A stretch of DNA of 64,000 nt from Kiritimatiellia bacterium (GTDB lineage: Bacteria; Verrucomicrobiota; Kiritimatiellia; RFP12; UBA1067). The notes under the pieces were generated by a model that worked only from the letters and a program-made list of their open reading frames with translations, searched no databases and was not told where the DNA came from. The DNA lies in NCBI GenBank assembly GCA_017450695.1, contig JAFSTA010000009.1:1-64000 (forward strand), written 5' to 3'. Below are positions 59 to 6,112 of the stretch, in pieces (position 1 is the stretch's first letter; each line of letters begins with the position of its first letter). A program made the translations under genes and the position numbers.

Positions 59-1162
59 CTAGAAGAAATACCCGGACAATACGCGATTATGTCGTACAAG
101 CGACGTGAGGCGCAAGTCTGCCACGATGGAATCGAGGGAGAACCAATCTTCCGGTGGTAGGGCGGCGCGGGGAATCGGGTGTGCAAGGCCAAGGGAATCG
201 ATGCTTTCCGCCTCGCGGAAAGCGGGTGCGGCATCGCCTGGCGTCCAGCCGAGACGAACGGTGACTGCGTTCCCGCCCCGCTCCTTCAAGAGCCGGAGCG
301 CGAGTTCACGCGCACGGAACGCACCCGCCACATCGACTTTGTGGGGATCTTTTCCGCAGATCGCCCCGCCCCCAATGGGGACCTCCGGTCCGTAAAAATC
401 GACAACGAGTTTCTTGCCGGACAGACCGTTGTCCCCCTCCGGCCCGCCAACGATGAAGTCACCCATGCCATTCAGGACGAAGTCCTCCAGCGGCAGGTCG
501 GAGATGCCCGCGATTCCTCGCGCCTCCAGTTCCGCCAGCGCACCGCGCACGACGGGCAGCACAAGCTCATGCTGCTCCGCCGGAAACACGCCCGCCCGAT
601 GCTGGATGCTCAAAGTCAGCCGCCGCCATTGGTAACGCCTGTCCTTGTCGTCGAGGTGTACAAGCACCTTGAAGTCCGGGCCGAACTTGTCGGGAACCGT
701 CCGACGCCAGGCATCGACCTTCCGCCCGATGTAGTTGGCCACGAAGTGCGCGGGCGGCAGGTAGTCTGTTTCGGGGTGGTTACAGGCGTACCCCGTGACG
801 ACATTCTGGTCGTCGGAAAGGTTGCGGATGGCACGTTCCTCGTCCGAGAGCGGCTCAAGACACACGTTTTGGATGACCTTCAGCTTCTCCGGCGCGTGAA
901 TCCAGATTCCGCCGTACCCCGCCTCGCGATAGCCCTTTCGGGCAATCTCCTCGATCTCGTCATGCCGCACGGCGCATGTGTCACCCGCCCCCGCAGCGAT
1001 ACGTCCGTCGATGAAGACATGATCGGTGTGTACGGCGCATTCCATGCCCACAAGGGCATCGCCGTCTCGCCCGACGGCAAGATCGACGATGGACTCCACG
1101 ATGGCATCCGCAAGGCGGTCGGGATGTCCGGGCGAGACAAATTCTGCTATGTGCGATTTCAT
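59..1162 (-). CDS. metK: Divergent S-adenosylmethionine synthetase
   Basis: This 367-aa protein should make S-adenosylmethionine from methionine and ATP in the cytosol. The start at 1162 (MKSHIAEF) is chosen because AAGGAG lies 6-11 bases upstream; the frame stays open further upstream into a hairpin. Visible family marks are N-terminal SPGHPDRLAD (usually SEGHPDKIAD), DDQN (usually GDQG), PDFK, GGPEGDNGLSGKK (usually GDxGLTGRK) and GGGAICGKDPHKVD, which keeps the two ATP/phosphate-binding lysines and the aspartate of GKDPxKVD. The protein is clearly unlike ordinary bacterial MetK in the flexible loop and C-terminus. It follows the MoxR/VWA operon on the same strand after a 102-base gap holding a strong hairpin, so it may be its fourth gene. 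It could be the only MetK of the genome or an accessory copy; the window cannot decide. Confidence 0.85.
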   Translation of the reverse strand: MKSHIAEFVSPGHPDRLADAIVESIVDLAVGRDGDALVGMECAVHTDHVFIDGRIAAGAGDTCAVRHDEIEEIARKGYREAGYGGIWIHAPEKLKVIQNVCLEPLSDEERAIRNLSDDQNVVTGYACNHPETDYLPPAHFVANYIGRKVDAWRRTVPDKFGPDFKVLVHLDDKDRRYQWRRLTLSIQHRAGVFPAEQHELVLPVVRGALAELEARGIAGISDLPLEDFVLNGMGDFIVGGPEGDNGLSGKKLVVDFYGPEVPIGGGAICGKDPHKVDVAGAFRARELALRLLKERGGNAVTVRLGWTPGDAAPAFREAESIDSLGLAHPIPRAALPPEDWFSLDSIVADLRLTSLVRHNRVLSGYFF

Positions 1163-1181
1163 GGTTAACTCCTTGTTTTTC

Positions 1182-1250
1182 AGCCACAAAGAACGCAAAG
1201 AACGCAAAGTTTCAAGAAAACTCTTTGTGCTCTTTGTGTTCTTTGTGGCT
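1182..1250. repeat. Near-perfect 69-base palindrome between VWA gene and metK
   Basis: AGCCACAAAGAACGCAAAG-type left arm and a CTTTGTGTTCTTTGTGGCT right arm surround a short A-rich loop. The arms are built from repeated CAAAGAACG units. It lies downstream of the VWA gene stop and immediately upstream of the metK ribosome-binding site. It could act as a terminator or processing hairpin, or be a dispersed palindromic repeat; CACAAAGAACGCAAAG-like units are familiar intergenic repeats in environmental genomes. No long T-run follows on the minus strand. Confidence 0.75.
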
Positions 1251-1264
1251 AGAATTCTTCATGT

Positions 1265-2692
1265 TCAAAAAAGCCTTACGAATTCATTTGAGATAGATGA
1301 GAGATCCTTTTCGGGATTGTACTGCGGATCGGATTTGACAAGGCCGACGTAAAGACGCATCCCCGCGGAACGGAACCCTGCGACAAGGGCGGCCTTCGGA
1401 CATCCCGTGTAACCGTCCGTGACCACCACAACGGACCGAGGGCGTTTCCGCGCGGGCAGGTCGAGGACGTGTCGCAGCACGCAGTCGATGTTTGTTCCGC
1501 CCGTCGAGAAGAACTTCCGGGCGGCAAGGTCGCGGGCGGTCGTGGGATACACGACGGTCGAAAACACATGAACCGTGCAGAGGCCGCGCCGACAGTACGG
1601 CAAAAGTGCCTGTGCCACGGATGGAACCTCGACCGCAACCGATCCCGACACGTCGAAATAGACGAACGCCTGCCTGTTGTCGCGGCTCGACGGACGGCAA
1701 ACCATCGTGACCGCCCGATAGACGAGCGCGTCGCCGAGCGCGGCCTCGCGAGCCTCGTGCGAACGGTCGCGCCAGTCGGGGAGAAACGTGGCCGTCTCGC
1801 AAAGCCTCTCGCGCACGGAGCGGCAACGCACCTCGTTCTGCCCCGGCATCGCCGCCCGGCGCATGAGCCGCCGGATACCGCGCCGGATCACAAGGTTCGG
1901 ATCGGCCTTTGCGTCGAAGTCCCGCTCACGCTCCGAAGAACCGAGGTCGCGCCCTTTGAGCGGTCGGTCGGGGCTGGGCCACTTGGAGATGATTTTGTGG
2001 ATCAGGTCTTTCATCTCGGCGGACATCTCCTCGTCCTCCTCGCCATGCGAACCGAGGAGAAGCGGTTTGTCACCGTGCGGACGGACGGGACGATCACCCC
2101 GACCATCGTTCTCGTTGCCCGGTTGAGGCGAGTGTCCCGCATGGCCTTCACCAGACAGTAGCAATGAGATTTCCTGGACGCAGCCACTCTTGAGAAGAGC
2201 CTCGTACACGTCGTAGTATGTGCCGATATCGCTACCGCCGTAGAGAAGTCTCAATGCGTTCTCTGCCTCGGGGGGAGTTCCCCTACCCTTCGGACGTAAC
2301 AGCGTGTAGGGCATCTTGTCGGGCGGGTAGTACTCCGTGAAGAACGAGGTAAACTCCGGGCGCGGGAAGAGCGAACAGAGAAGCGCGTTGATGACGGCGT
2401 CGAAGACGAGGTTGCGCACTTCCGTCGAGCGGGGAAAGAGCCGCGTGTGACCGAGGATCACGTGGTACAGTTCGTGCATCACCAGCATGAAGAGGTGTTC
2501 GTCGGTCTTGCAATGGCAACCGATGAACTCCTGGTTGAGCAGGAGTTCCGGCGAATCCCCGCACGTCACACAGGCGGTCTCGGTCTTGTTTGAAAAGCGA
2601 ACGCGGAAGAGCGACAGGAACGTCATCAGCTCGAACGAGCGAGGCGGAATCACGTTCAATATACGCTCGATGATTTTCTCTTCGTCGGTCAT
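1265..2692 (-). CDS. VWA-domain protein with N-terminal HExxH metallopeptidase-like domain (DUF2201-like)
   Basis: A 475-aa cytosolic protein. The N-terminal part carries HELYH at residues 73-77 followed by GH, the zinc-binding signature of the metallopeptidase-like domain that precedes VWA-like domains in DUF2201/COG3864 proteins. Residues about 185-225 are a polar, low-complexity linker. The C-terminal VWA-like domain has an intact MIDAS: DVSGS (347-351), TGGTN (397-401) and VVTDG (about D426). Start 2692 has GGAGGTGA just upstream and overlaps the stop of the 155-aa gene (ATGA), so translation is coupled. Proteins like this pair with MoxR AAA+ ATPases, as here two genes upstream, and are thought to act with them as chaperone or remodelling machines. 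The substrate is unknown. The frame continues upstream of 2692, but that segment lies inside the neighbouring gene. Confidence 0.85.
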   Translation of the reverse strand: MTDEEKIIERILNVIPPRSFELMTFLSLFRVRFSNKTETACVTCGDSPELLLNQEFIGCHCKTDEHLFMLVMHELYHVILGHTRLFPRSTEVRNLVFDAVINALLCSLFPRPEFTSFFTEYYPPDKMPYTLLRPKGRGTPPEAENALRLLYGGSDIGTYYDVYEALLKSGCVQEISLLLSGEGHAGHSPQPGNENDGRGDRPVRPHGDKPLLLGSHGEEDEEMSAEMKDLIHKIISKWPSPDRPLKGRDLGSSERERDFDAKADPNLVIRRGIRRLMRRAAMPGQNEVRCRSVRERLCETATFLPDWRDRSHEAREAALGDALVYRAVTMVCRPSSRDNRQAFVYFDVSGSVAVEVPSVAQALLPYCRRGLCTVHVFSTVVYPTTARDLAARKFFSTGGTNIDCVLRHVLDLPARKRPRSVVVVTDGYTGCPKAALVAGFRSAGMRLYVGLVKSDPQYNPEKDLSSISNEFVRLF

Positions 2693-3156
2693 GGTGTCAC
2701 CTCCGGCCAGTGGAGGTTTGGAAAATATTTCTCCGGGAACGCAATCGCGTCCTTGTAAGCGGCGCAAGAAGAACTAAGGTTTATGTCCCGCCTTGGAATG
2801 TAAATCATGCCAGCCATGCGGCCAAGGACTGCCAACGTCAGGATCGGATCTCCACAGACCCTGTAGATTTTTGGATCGTTGCCTTTCAGCGGTTGGTTGA
2901 CATTTTCACAGATGCATCCGATCATAAATCCTGTCGGACGCTTGACGGCATCAAGCTCTGCCTTGTGATCCTGAACAAATCGTGTCAGCCAGTCGTTGAT
3001 GATGGCGTCTCGCTCTGCAGACGGCAATTTCAGATTGTCGCCTGGAGCATGAAGACCGACTCGCCTCAAATCCAAAACGACCTGTCTCCCGACTGGCTTG
3101 ACCTGCTGGCGCGCCGTCGTGAGAGGCGGCCCGGACATGTTGTGATAGGCGTTCAT
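2689..3156 (-). CDS. Unrecognised 155-aa protein between MoxR and VWA genes
   Basis: I do not recognise this protein. It starts at 3156 (MNAYHNMSG), where its ATG overlaps the MoxR stop as ATGA, and its own stop overlaps the VWA start the same way. That double coupling is the main evidence that it is real and acts with both neighbours. No signal peptide or membrane segment is visible. The middle, FMIGCICENVNQPLKG and IYRVCGDPILTLAVLG, is hydrophobic with several cysteines (CIC, VCGD, SSSC). The C-terminus, AFPEKYFPNLHWPEV, is aromatic-rich. It could be a substrate adaptor or structural partner of the ATPase; that is only inferred from position. Confidence 0.8.
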   Translation of the reverse strand: MNAYHNMSGPPLTTARQQVKPVGRQVVLDLRRVGLHAPGDNLKLPSAERDAIINDWLTRFVQDHKAELDAVKRPTGFMIGCICENVNQPLKGNDPKIYRVCGDPILTLAVLGRMAGMIYIPRRDINLSSSCAAYKDAIAFPEKYFPNLHWPEVTP

Positions 3157-4577
3157 TGAAGTGAAAACTCCTTCCACAGTTGTTCAAAGTCCTTCGACGC
3201 GCTGATGACAGCTTTCTTGTCGGGAAAGCCATCTGGAAGAAACGAGTTGAGCAGGTTCGCATGGTAACGTGCAAAGTCTGTCTCCGCGCCGCATCGCCCA
3301 TTGACGTCGGCAATCCGTGCGCCGATCGTGCGAGTTACCTCGGAGACCCAAGCCGAAACGGATACGTTCTTTTCCACTGGCTCAATGGCCGGCAGAATAT
3401 CCTTTGCAAGCAACTCAACCGTAGAGGCCGGGATATCCGAGCGCTCGCGGATGGCAAGATAGGTGGCAAGGGCGAGCCCGCGCCGGAGATACCGCTTTGC
3501 CGCCGCTACGCCTTCGCCGATGACGACGGCGGCACGGTCTGGTGGAACGGAGAGCTTCTTCGAGACCATCGACTTGAGGCGCAACACCGGATCGGCGATC
3601 CGCATCAGCTGCACCAACGGATCGGATTCGTCCAACGCCGAAAGTTTCCACGCCGTCTTGCAGATGGCAGTCAGTTCCGCCGCGTTGAGTCTCCTGCGCG
3701 CCCGGTCGGGAAGCGTGTTCAGGAGCGCGAGACGAGCCGAATCGTAGAGCTGCGGCTCCTCCCCTCCCGTCCGCCAGGCGAGAACTTGGCGGGCCGCGTG
3801 TACGGCAATGACACATCGGAGCAGCATTGTCGCCCGACGCGTCGAGACGTCGTAGCGCGACGCATGAAGCTTCGGCACGAGCGTGATGATGTACGGCGTG
3901 AGGCGGGGCGTCAGCTCCGGTACCAGCGCGCCGTACCGTTCGCGTGCCTCCGCGACGAGTTCACGGATGGCGACGGGGAACTCGTGCCGTCCGGCGAACT
4001 GGTCTGCGAGAACCTTCTTCTGGTCGGACGGCGAGAGGTCGTCCCAATCCGGCACCGACATGATGTAGGGGAACCGATCCGCAAGCGCGGCGTCGAGCGG
4101 TTCGGAACCGAGGTAGAGCGCGTCGCCCTCGTCCAGCTCCTCGTCCGTCGGCGGCGGATTCATCGCGGCCCAGCGATAGACGAGGCTGGAGAGCGGACGC
4201 CCCTGGACGCGCCGGTCGTAGATGATCGGGAAGAGCTTGTTCTGGAGCTCGGGGCGCGTGCGGCTGATCTCGTCGATGAACACGACCTCCGCATCCCAGA
4301 TGCTCTCCGGCGACGAGAGATATTCGAGCTTCGTGCGCGTCGCGTCCGGGAGTGGTACGCCCACCAGGTCGTCGTAGTTGATGAGGCTCGCGTTGTACGA
4401 GCGGAACGCCATGCCGAGGCTTTCGGCAAGACGCTCCAGCACAAAACTCTTGGCGCATCCGTGGGCACCCACGAGGAGAAGCGGTTCCTCCGAGAGAAGC
4501 GCCGCCAGCAGTACAGGCTCGGCCTTCTTCCACCCATACAGCCCCAGCGGCTCGGTGATTAACGAAGAGGGGTTCAT
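3153..4577 (-). CDS. MoxR-type AAA+ ATPase
   Basis: A 474-aa cytosolic ATPase. Walker A GAHGCAKS is at residues 37-44, Walker B VVFIDEI at 98-104 and a sensor-1-like WAAMNPPPTDEE segment at about 135-146, the order expected for the MoxR clade of helix-2-insert AAA+ proteins. The C-terminal third is helical and less conserved. Start 4577 has AAGGAG upstream. It is the first gene of the operon with the 155-aa protein and the VWA/HExxH protein, a classic MoxR-VWA partnership in which the ATPase remodels or activates a target presented by the VWA protein. The exact role here is unknown: metal insertion, stress response and conflict-system roles all occur in the family. It is not near the Bat genes at 20.8-24.7 kb. 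Confidence 0.9.
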   Translation of the reverse strand: MNPSSLITEPLGLYGWKKAEPVLLAALLSEEPLLLVGAHGCAKSFVLERLAESLGMAFRSYNASLINYDDLVGVPLPDATRTKLEYLSSPESIWDAEVVFIDEISRTRPELQNKLFPIIYDRRVQGRPLSSLVYRWAAMNPPPTDEELDEGDALYLGSEPLDAALADRFPYIMSVPDWDDLSPSDQKKVLADQFAGRHEFPVAIRELVAEARERYGALVPELTPRLTPYIITLVPKLHASRYDVSTRRATMLLRCVIAVHAARQVLAWRTGGEEPQLYDSARLALLNTLPDRARRRLNAAELTAICKTAWKLSALDESDPLVQLMRIADPVLRLKSMVSKKLSVPPDRAAVVIGEGVAAAKRYLRRGLALATYLAIRERSDIPASTVELLAKDILPAIEPVEKNVSVSAWVSEVTRTIGARIADVNGRCGAETDFARYHANLLNSFLPDGFPDKKAVISASKDFEQLWKEFSLQ

Positions 4578-4783
4578 CGTTTTGTCTCCTTTCCCGTCCT
4601 ATCAAGCTTCTCAGGAAGGGACTATCCCCCCGCAAACGATTAGCCGCCCATCCTGCAATCAAGACGAGCGGCCTTCTGGAACATATTTCCCTTTCGGGCA
4701 CATCGCCTCTCGGCTACCACCGTGGTGTTCCACTCGGTTGGTGCGATCTGCGTTACCGCAAATCGTCTCCTGATGTCTTGAGC
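4578..4783 (-). ncRNA. Structured 5' leader of the MoxR operon (candidate regulatory RNA)
   Basis: About 206 nt separate the predicted transcription start from the MoxR start codon. Read on the minus strand, it contains a 9-bp helix closed by a GUAA loop (4744-4765), the short hairpin GCC-GAGA-GGC (4705-4714), the hairpin CCC-GAAA-GGG (4689-4698) and a fully paired 10-bp helix with a 10-nt loop (4643-4672). Three GNRA-type tetraloops in about 80 nt suggest a folded RNA with tertiary contacts. I compared the remembered consensus cores of SAM, SAH, GEMM, TPP, FMN, cobalamin, glycine, THF and ZTP riboswitches and saw no match. It could also be a plain leader or a protein-binding autoregulatory site. 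Confidence 0.5.
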
Positions 4784-4789
4784 GCGCGT

Positions 4790-4818
4790 AAGGTATCACA
4801 TTCCAGAATGCGTGTCAA
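4790..4818 (-). promoter_or_regulatory. Sigma-70-type promoter of the MoxR operon
   Basis: On the minus strand the -35 box TTGACA (4813-4818) and -10 box TACCTT (4790-4795) are 17 bases apart. The spacer contains the perfect dyad CATTCTGGAATG, which could be an operator. Transcription would start near 4783. Confidence 0.7.
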
Positions 4819-4925: not shown

Positions 4926-5125
4926 GAAAAAGTTAAAAAAAATTAAATCGCTTCGCTTTGAAATAGTTAAAAAGTGCTGGCGGACGCGACGGCGCGCGTC
5001 CAACAACACTCTGATAAGCGACAAGAGTGTCGCTTCCCCGAAACAAGCGCCGATTTCAAGCCTCCGAAGGAGGCGATTTAACCTTTTCAAGCGCAGCGAT
5101 TTAATTTTTCCCTGTTTCGTGTGTT
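4926..5125. repeat. Composite hairpin intergenic repeat, copy A
   Basis: The stretch begins with AATTAAATCGCTTCGCTTTG and ends with its approximate reverse complement, AGCGCAGCGATTTAATTTTT. In between are a GC-rich hairpin (GGACGCG/CGCGTCC type), a CACTCT...AGAGTG hairpin and GCCTCCGAAGGAGGC. The same building blocks recur around 5983, 8909, 11265, 11403, 15829 and 15921. Open frames through this region are repeat-derived and I do not call them genes. The remainder of 4819-5337 shows nothing else recognisable. Confidence 0.8.
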
Positions 5126-5337
5126 CCGTGGTTTCTAATACATTGTCCAACAGAGGAATTTGCTTTTCGTTTGGGCAACCAAAATTAGGCTTTCGTTTCG
5201 CATGAAGTTGTGTTACGCTTCTGGATGTAAACACCATGCGGAGATGGCGTGCTGATACCGCGAACGTCTGGGAACTCTCTCAGGAACCGACACGGGAATA
5301 TCGGCAGTCTAGGAACAGTTTCATAGGAACGTTGAAA

Positions 5338-5967
5338 ATGCGAGAACGATATCTATTCCGAGGATGCGGCGGGGATTTTCAGGGCAGCATCGATGAGGAG
5401 GGGCGGCTCTATGACGAGATGCACAGGCTCGTCGGAAGGATCGAGGGCAATGCCATTTACGACACCTGTAATCTCAAGCAGGGTACGATAGATGAGAACG
5501 GGAAGCTGTGGGATTCCATCCACGTCTTTGTGGGGGAAGAACGCGGAAAAAATTTCATTGGGCAAACGGGGCATGGCGCCGGATTAGTCCGGGGAGACTA
5601 TCCCGACGAAGGACGAGGCGTGGAATATGGTGCGCTGATGTTACTGAAGAAAAAGAGCCAGCAGAATTGTGATACGCCTATGGATTTCCGGTATGAATTC
5701 GGTGACGAAGAAGACTACGGCGGCAACCAGGATCGCTACGACGAATACGACGATGATGAGTATGAAAGCGACACGGACGATTCGTATGGCGGTGGAAGGG
5801 ATGACTATTTCACCCCTGGCCCGACGCCACACCGCAGGAGTCGGCATACCAATCAAGAGTACGACGACGATCCCCCGGTCTCGTACCTCGCCTATCTCAT
5901 CATGGGGGGAGTAATCGGAGGCATGATCCTGTACATTGTCATTTGCGCATACATCGTGCTGAAGTAA
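5338..5967 (+). CDS. Acidic tail-anchored protein with a duplicated 27-residue motif
   Basis: A 209-aa protein I cannot assign to a family. Start 5338 (MRERYLFRG) is chosen over the upstream ATG at 5236 because the earlier residues look like unrelated intergenic translation and AGGAA lies just upstream. Residues 16-42 and 49-75 are an internal duplication of the form G-[ST]-I-D-E-x-G-x-L-[YW]-D ... VG. A very acidic, Tyr/Asp/Gly-rich stretch follows (about residues 115-160, with runs like YDEYDDDEYE). The C-terminus is one membrane helix (LMGGVIGGMILYIVICAYIV-like) with only a few residues after it, so the protein is probably tail-anchored with the repeats in the cytosol. It stands alone between repeat copies A and B. 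Confidence 0.7.
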   Translation: MRERYLFRGCGGDFQGSIDEEGRLYDEMHRLVGRIEGNAIYDTCNLKQGTIDENGKLWDSIHVFVGEERGKNFIGQTGHGAGLVRGDYPDEGRGVEYGALMLLKKKSQQNCDTPMDFRYEFGDEEDYGGNQDRYDEYDDDEYESDTDDSYGGGRDDYFTPGPTPHRRSRHTNQEYDDDPPVSYLAYLIMGGVIGGMILYIVICAYIVLK

Positions 5968-5982
5968 CGGGCGCGACGAGGG

Positions 5983-6112
5983 AAAATTAAATCGCTTCGC
6001 TTGAAATGGTTAAAGTGCGCGGGCGGACACGACGGGGCACGTCCTACAACACTCTGATAAGCGGTCAAGCGCCGATTTCAAGCCTCTGAAGGAGGCGATT
6101 TAACCTTTTCAC
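5983..6112. repeat. Composite hairpin intergenic repeat, copy B
   Basis: This copy has the order AAATTAAATCGCTTCGCTTG, a GGACACGACGGGGCACGTCC hairpin, ACAACACTCTGATAAGCG, then GCCGATTTCAAGCCTCTGAA and GGAGGCGATTTAACC. It fills the gap between the tail-anchored protein gene and the 3' end of gyrA, where it could end both convergent transcripts. Confidence 0.8.

Follow-up and report, generated by a model that had tools for sequence, protein, structure and literature searches.

A predicted SAM-I/IV riboswitch upstream of a MoxR/VWA operon with a divergent MetK paralogue in a Kiritimatiellia bacterium

What is the highly structured RNA that precedes a MoxR operon ending in a gene related to SAM synthetase, and what could it control? 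This question was raised by a stretch of 64,000 nucleotides from a Kiritimatiellia bacterium (contig JAFSTA010000009.1), called the window below. The operon lies on the minus strand and comprises moxR (4577-3153), an ORF of 155-162 aa, a VWA gene and a MetK-like gene ending at position 59. The leader is transcribed from the same strand, toward moxR at 4577; leader and operon coordinates in the window below refer to this strand. Region 4578-4783 folds to -81 kcal/mol, as compared to a mean of -61.6 for shuffled sequences (z = -4.46), and none of 200 shuffles equalled it. A plus-strand structure was discarded, as the fold of that strand is unremarkable (z = -1.16). A sequence-only reading of this DNA had placed a near-consensus promoter before the leader. 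The -35-like TTGACA (4813-4818) is indeed perfect by direct reading. However, TACCTT (4790-4795), 17 nt downstream of TTGACA, makes a weak -10 element that matches TATAAT at 3 of 6 positions, and a scan for consensus promoters returned nothing upstream of the leader at the threshold used.

A cmscan search against Rfam matched positions 4673-4781 to RF01725 (SAM-I/IV) over the full model (1-99), with 53.1 bits for a gathering threshold of 41.1 and an E-value of 8e-8 on the leader. This was the sole above-gathering Rfam match across the whole window. No match to SAM-I (RF00162) was reported in the window, the best model of the clan there being RF01725. SAM-I/IV is told from SAM-I and SAM-IV by an uninterrupted P2, the absence of PK-1, and the presence of P4 and PK-2 (PMC2864571, PMC6890682); its crystal structure is described as 4L81 (PMC5393176). 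In the window, Rfam alignment and pair counts place P1 between ACAUC (4772-4776) and GAUGU (4700-4704). P2 (4744-4765) is an uninterrupted 9-bp helix with a GUAA loop, without internal loop, kink-turn or PK-1. P3 (4716-4742) carries the SAM-binding core CCAACC...GGUGG, which aligns to the Rfam consensus and is near-invariant in 12 relatives. The fold further contains P4 (GCC-GAGA-GGC, 4705-4714) and P5 (CCC-GAAA-GGG, 4689-4698), the latter also supported by the Rfam alignment. Finally, GGAAC in L3 (4727-4731) forms PK-2 with GUUCC in the 3′ tail (4678-4682), a pairing kept at 100% in the 12 relatives according to pair counts.

P2, P4 and P5 are the GUAA, GAGA and GAAA hairpins already recognised in the sequence-only reading, and its expectation of a folded RNA with tertiary contacts is supported. 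Its statement that no familiar riboswitch core fits did not hold, since RF01725 matches over its full length and above the curated threshold. The same reading had proposed an Rfam search and had counted a hit to a known family against an unrecognised core; such a hit was obtained, and the match to RF01725 rules out an unrecognised riboswitch.

Covariation was examined in an alignment (A3) of 12 aptamers of this Kiritimatiellae group. Standard pairs occupy 95.7% of the pair cells and changes on both sides are found at 10 aptamer pairs. On five measures of covariation, 0 of 500 shuffles reached any of the observed values, and slid-register controls gave a paired fraction of only 30-45%, far below that of the true register. 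Most of the signal comes from P2, with two-sided changes at 8 of its 9 pairs; P4 shows one such change, and PK-2 one full G-C to C-G swap, at locus L053. The leader helices, for which a covariation test had also been suggested, thus covary across the 12 relatives. Judged from sequence and alignment, the leader is a SAM-I/IV aptamer with all its helices and PK-2, which makes it a normal representative of an established riboswitch class; its interpretation as a new folded RNA is therefore not supported. The aptamer identity also supports the earlier idea of a SAM-related ligand: if the aptamer is SAM-I/IV, the guess of SAM was right. The argument had been drawn from a SAM synthetase as last gene of the operon; this holds, but the gene encodes a divergent MetK paralogue and not the housekeeping enzyme.

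How could SAM binding act on the operon? The order 3′ of the aptamer is a 14-bp hairpin, the sequence AUCGUUU, a CCCUUCCUGA stretch, the Shine-Dalgarno sequence AGGAG (4586-4590, 8 nt 5′ of the AUG by direct reading) and AAACGAUG. The hairpin (4642-4673) separates the aptamer from the expression platform in the fold and is seen in relatives too; it had been described as a fully paired 10-bp helix, which is present but extends to 14 bp as RNA when G-U pairs are counted. AUCGUUU (4634-4640), conserved in relatives, is the complement of AAACGAU (4576-4582), which overlaps the start codon at its A and U; a duplex comparison gives GCGUUUUCG:CGAAAAUGC as the corresponding pairing in L053. These are the two strands of a candidate sequestor. 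A candidate switching strand, UUCCUGA (4611-4617), forms an anti-P1 helix with UCAGGAG (4767-4773) in the minimum free energy structure and overlaps CUUCCU, which is complementary to the Shine-Dalgarno sequence. In this structure of the whole leader P1 is broken, and UCAAG of the 5′ end plus UCAGGAG pair with CUUGA plus UUCCUGA. When P1 is forced, the leaders of L004, L005, L008, L010 and L042 fold into a CGUUUGC:GCAAACG-type helix over the start region. In L053, which comes from another family within the same taxonomic order, both helices reappear but are formed by other sequences (CGGCAUCGAG:CUCGGUGCCG and GCGUUUUCG:CGAAAAUGC).

We consider it probable that the SAM-I/IV riboswitch represses moxR-orf162-VWA-metK2 when SAM is plentiful, most likely at translation. 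SAM binding would form or stabilise P1. The downstream strand CUUCCUGA, which includes CUUCCU, would then remain available to mask the Shine-Dalgarno site, and AUCGUUU would close over the start codon by pairing with AAACGAU, giving the OFF state. When SAM is absent, UUCCUGA and CUUGA would pair with UCAGGAG and UCAAG of the P1 5′ strand; this anti-P1 helix would break P1 and free the ribosome site (ON). That SAM would repress is taken from established practice with SAM riboswitches.

The platform helices were compared with shuffled duplexes in separate tests, uncorrected for their number and with close relatives that are not independent. For anti-P1, p values were 0.001 in L053 (CGGCAUCGAG:CUCGGUGCCG), 0.007 in L010 (using a 5′ segment from an upstream CAUCAAG repeat, with the same seven bases at the true P1), 0.008 in L042, 0.011 in L005 and 0.08 in the window. 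For the sequestor, they were 0.001 in L005, 0.004 in L004, 0.009 in L010, 0.011 in L042, 0.12 in L053 and 0.39 in the window. In a hand-registered strand-swap comparison of all relatives, with L010 at its true P1 position, own-strand anti-P1 pairing was no better on average than swapped pairing (8.36 versus 8.24). Since the anti-P1 strands are nearly unvarying among close relatives and swapping them makes so little difference, the platform covariation comes down to what is seen in L053 and L010, plus a few isolated changes. Overall, a translational OFF switch has moderate support from these predicted pairings, the weakest being in the window itself.

The same SAM-I/IV riboswitch might instead act on transcription, with the aptamer or the 14-bp hairpin governing Rho-dependent or intrinsic termination. 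A spacer of 95 nt with a strong hairpin between aptamer and Shine-Dalgarno sequence would suit such a mode, and terminator-like hairpins with U runs are found 3′ of the aptamer in other lineages, for example in L015, L016, L021 and Verrucomicrobia loci, so that control does not follow one mode in all lineages. In the leader of the window, however, a terminator scan found no intrinsic terminator, direct reading shows no U run after the 14-bp hairpin, and the complementarities that recur in Kiritimatiellae leaders cover the Shine-Dalgarno sequence and the AUG. Transcriptional control therefore appears improbable here.

Among 84,980 species genomes scanned, 42 MoxR relatives were found; searches of whole genomes contributed four more loci that were not duplicates. 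With the window this makes 47 loci, 46 of them with upstream sequence. The order MoxR, small ORF, VWA, MetK2 recurs among these relatives, often with short gaps. A SAM-clan aptamer was found upstream of the operon at 36 of the 46 loci. Nineteen reach Rfam gathering: 11 as SAM-I/IV (the window, L004, L005, L007, L008, L009, L022, L025, L027, L042 and L053) and 8 as SAM-I (L015, L016, L021, L024, L032, L035, L037 and L038). The other 17 have a sub-threshold SAM-clan match at the same place and on the same strand (L010, L011, L012, L014, L017, L018, L019, L026, L029, L030, L031, L033, L040, L041, L043, L044 and L058). At 5 of the 46 loci the upstream match is weak (L013, L023, L036, L055 and L057), and at another 5 no upstream SAM-clan aptamer was found (L020, L028, L034, L039 and L045). 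SAM-I precedes the same operon in Clostridia/Acholeplasma-labelled and in Hydrogenedentota-labelled genomes. A model of the Kiritimatiellae aptamer, run over both strands of 245 kb of these loci, gave 15 matches at E<=1, 14 of which lie ahead of moxR and are correctly oriented. The operon itself is rare and patchy, being present in 8 of 144 relatives and in 6 of 388 genomes sampled from the whole phylum (its own genome included in both counts).

No MetK2 was detected after the VWA gene of L021, L024, L032, L033, L035, L037 and L038; as the aptamer is present at these loci, the riboswitch goes with MoxR/VWA even there. In L018 and L058, the aptamer precedes a canonical-type metK located directly 5′ of moxR, so that riboswitch, metK and MoxR genes form one apparent unit; in L018, a metK2 is also found downstream. 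Taken together, the operon is conserved with predicted SAM-clan riboswitches in distant lineages.

The last gene of the operon in the window (59-1207) encodes a divergent methionine adenosyltransferase paralogue, here named MetK2, with the N, M and C domains of Pfam S-AdoMet_synt. It scores 131.6 bits with TIGR01034, below the equivalog cut-off of 309.4; a housekeeping metK with 503.1 bits is located elsewhere in the same genome. Residues are numbered according to what we take to be the E. coli MetK sequence. H14, D16, E42, D118, D163, K165, D238, K245, K265, K269 and D271 are kept, with at most one exception among 23 MetK2 sequences of a subfamily seen in the window and in relatives within L004-L043. 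In all 23, Glu55 is replaced by Arg and Lys17 by Arg; Arg244 is Lys in 22, and Gln98 is Glu or Asp in 19. MetK2 has a GHPDR motif and a shortened flexible loop, beside which position 98 is less surely aligned. In E. coli MetK, Glu55 and Asp238 hold the amino group of methionine and Gln98 and Lys269 its carboxylate (PMC3853416, PMC1282579). The reversed charges of the predicted MetK2 pocket suggest a different substrate or binding mode, and the substrate may be other than L-methionine.

Might the fold then be kept while its ligand has drifted, for instance to the product of MetK2? The change of Glu55 to Arg in 23 of 23 methionine pockets and the separation of the operon from housekeeping metK would fit such a drift. 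Against it, the aptamer scores above the Rfam threshold with a near-invariant CCAACC...GGUGG core, and SAM-I riboswitches hold the same position in other lineages. In addition, near-identical aptamers stand before unrelated genes in relatives; SAM-I/IV with a similar leader precedes genes of unknown role in L059, L060, L062 and L063. In genomes of relatives, SAM-I/IV copies of greater divergence stand before canonical metK (L061, L064 and L065), which supports SAM as the ligand. We therefore regard a drifted ligand as very improbable. A structure that arose by chance or has no regulatory role (a repeat or a ligand-less attenuator) finds an argument in the single platform helices of the window, not significant against shuffles, but is already contradicted by the Rfam E-value, the fold z-score, the covariation and the conserved placement before the same operon, and its likelihood is negligible.

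SAM-clan riboswitches were also observed in other settings. In the genome of the window, no second SAM-I/IV copy was found at E up to 0.001; SAM-I/IV control of its housekeeping metK was discarded, with no second match and no aptamer evident in the metK leader. In L066/L082 (G007:C152), SAM-I/IV immediately precedes the gene of yet another kind of MetK-like protein, the third, which has 374 aa and keeps Glu55. Two Chthonomonas-labelled loci, L068 and L069, have SAM-I/IV followed by SAM-I within about 40 nt, a tandem of two classes (G030:C180:7679-7940, minus strand; G036:C97:49555-49817, plus strand), and a further SAM-I copy lies near the tandem in G030. In L079 (G001:C45:24000-43800, minus strand), SAM-I/IV with a MoxR-like leader precedes a restriction-modification-like cluster: a weakly DnaJ-like gene, an unknown gene, a Z1-domain protein, an N6/N4 DNA methylase and a ResIII-type helicase/endonuclease. 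Verrucomicrobia-type loci (L011, L012, L013, L014, L017, L022, L025, L029, L071, L073, L075 and L076) carry, downstream of the SAM riboswitch and ahead of whichever gene comes next (moxR or another), an ORF of about 70-90 aa with HHLWNNNGTWWCHY...TKRRVR...SLGT, possibly a small partner or leader protein. In the window, similar intergenic sequences (AAATCGCTTCGCTT ... CAACACTCTGATAAGCG ... AAGCGCCGATTTCAAGCCTC) at about 4930-5095 and 5984-6110 flank the ORF 5236-5967 on both sides and look like a repeat element.

What would such a riboswitch govern? MoxR (3153-4577) is a MoxR-type AAA+ ATPase (Pfam AAA_5, 1e-11) whose Walker motifs are present in nearly all relatives. The protein of about 155 aa (2689-3177, likely start M at about 3156) has no Pfam or NCBIfam match; in relatives, its homologues likewise sit between the MoxR and VWA genes. 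The VWA protein (1265-2767) carries a conserved metalloprotease-like HELYHVILGH motif and a DxSGS MIDAS motif; its Pfam VWA_CoxE match (3.4e-4) is below gathering, and HELxHxxxGH is present in nearly all VWA partners among relatives. An AAA+ protein with Walker A and B motifs thus adjoins a MIDAS-bearing VWA protein, as in MoxR/VWA pairs. Known pairs remodel or metal-load a dedicated client (PMC13036017, PMC4660213, PMC10585395), as NorQD does in metal insertion (PMC13036017). By analogy with NorQD, CbbQO and RavA-ViaA, the pair would remodel or activate a client enzyme, for which we infer MetK2 of the operon as first candidate. Since riboswitch-MoxR/VWA loci without MetK2 exist, a further possible client is a SAM-related enzyme other than MetK2, for example housekeeping MetK. 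No operon protein (0/4) had a PADLOC match to an anti-phage defence system, no match placed the operon on a phage, a plasmid or a virus, and no consistent neighbour was found 3′ of MetK2 among the listed ORFs. Tentatively, and with more doubt than confidence, we propose a SAM-riboswitch-controlled MoxR/VWA machine that has a protease-like HExxH domain and would serve the altered-pocket MetK2, which would adenosylate a substrate other than L-methionine or make SAM under different control. If so, the riboswitch would tie a MetK2 side pathway to the cellular SAM level.

The RNA class is already known; the new part is its target, the MoxR/VWA and MetK2 operon. The literature searched contains no paper that ties MoxR to a SAM riboswitch, though papers beyond it may do so; judged by title and abstract, none of the publications there on 'MoxR' and 'riboswitch' appears to describe such control. 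MoxR/VWA machines are poorly understood and a SAM-sensing target is unexpected. The occurrence of two SAM-clan classes before one rare operon, in lineages far from each other, gives a strong, testable assignment to SAM metabolism for this MoxR/VWA branch and for the orphan MetK paralogue, whose substrate pocket is altered.

As compared to known systems, the leader shares with SAM-I/IV (RF01725) P1, the uninterrupted P2, P3, P4, P5, the L3-tail PK-2 and the core. It differs in having about 90 nt, with the 14-bp hairpin and the predicted anti-P1/sequestor platform, between PK-2 and the ribosome site, and in its target, a MoxR operon. SAM-I (S-box, RF00162) shares the SAM-binding core of SAM-I/IV but, unlike the aptamer of the window, possesses a kink-turn and PK-1 and lacks PK-2 and P5. 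MetK2 shares three MAT domains and the catalytic and nucleotide residues with MetK, whereas Arg55, mostly Glu or Asp98, Arg17, Lys244, the shorter loop and the sub-cut-off NCBIfam score set it apart. As in NorQ-NorD, CbbQ-CbbO and RavA-ViaA, a MoxR AAA+ gene adjoins a VWA/MIDAS gene; in contrast to these systems, the VWA partner in the window bears HExxHxxxGH, and the operon adds the MetK-like and ~155-aa genes together with predicted control by a SAM riboswitch.
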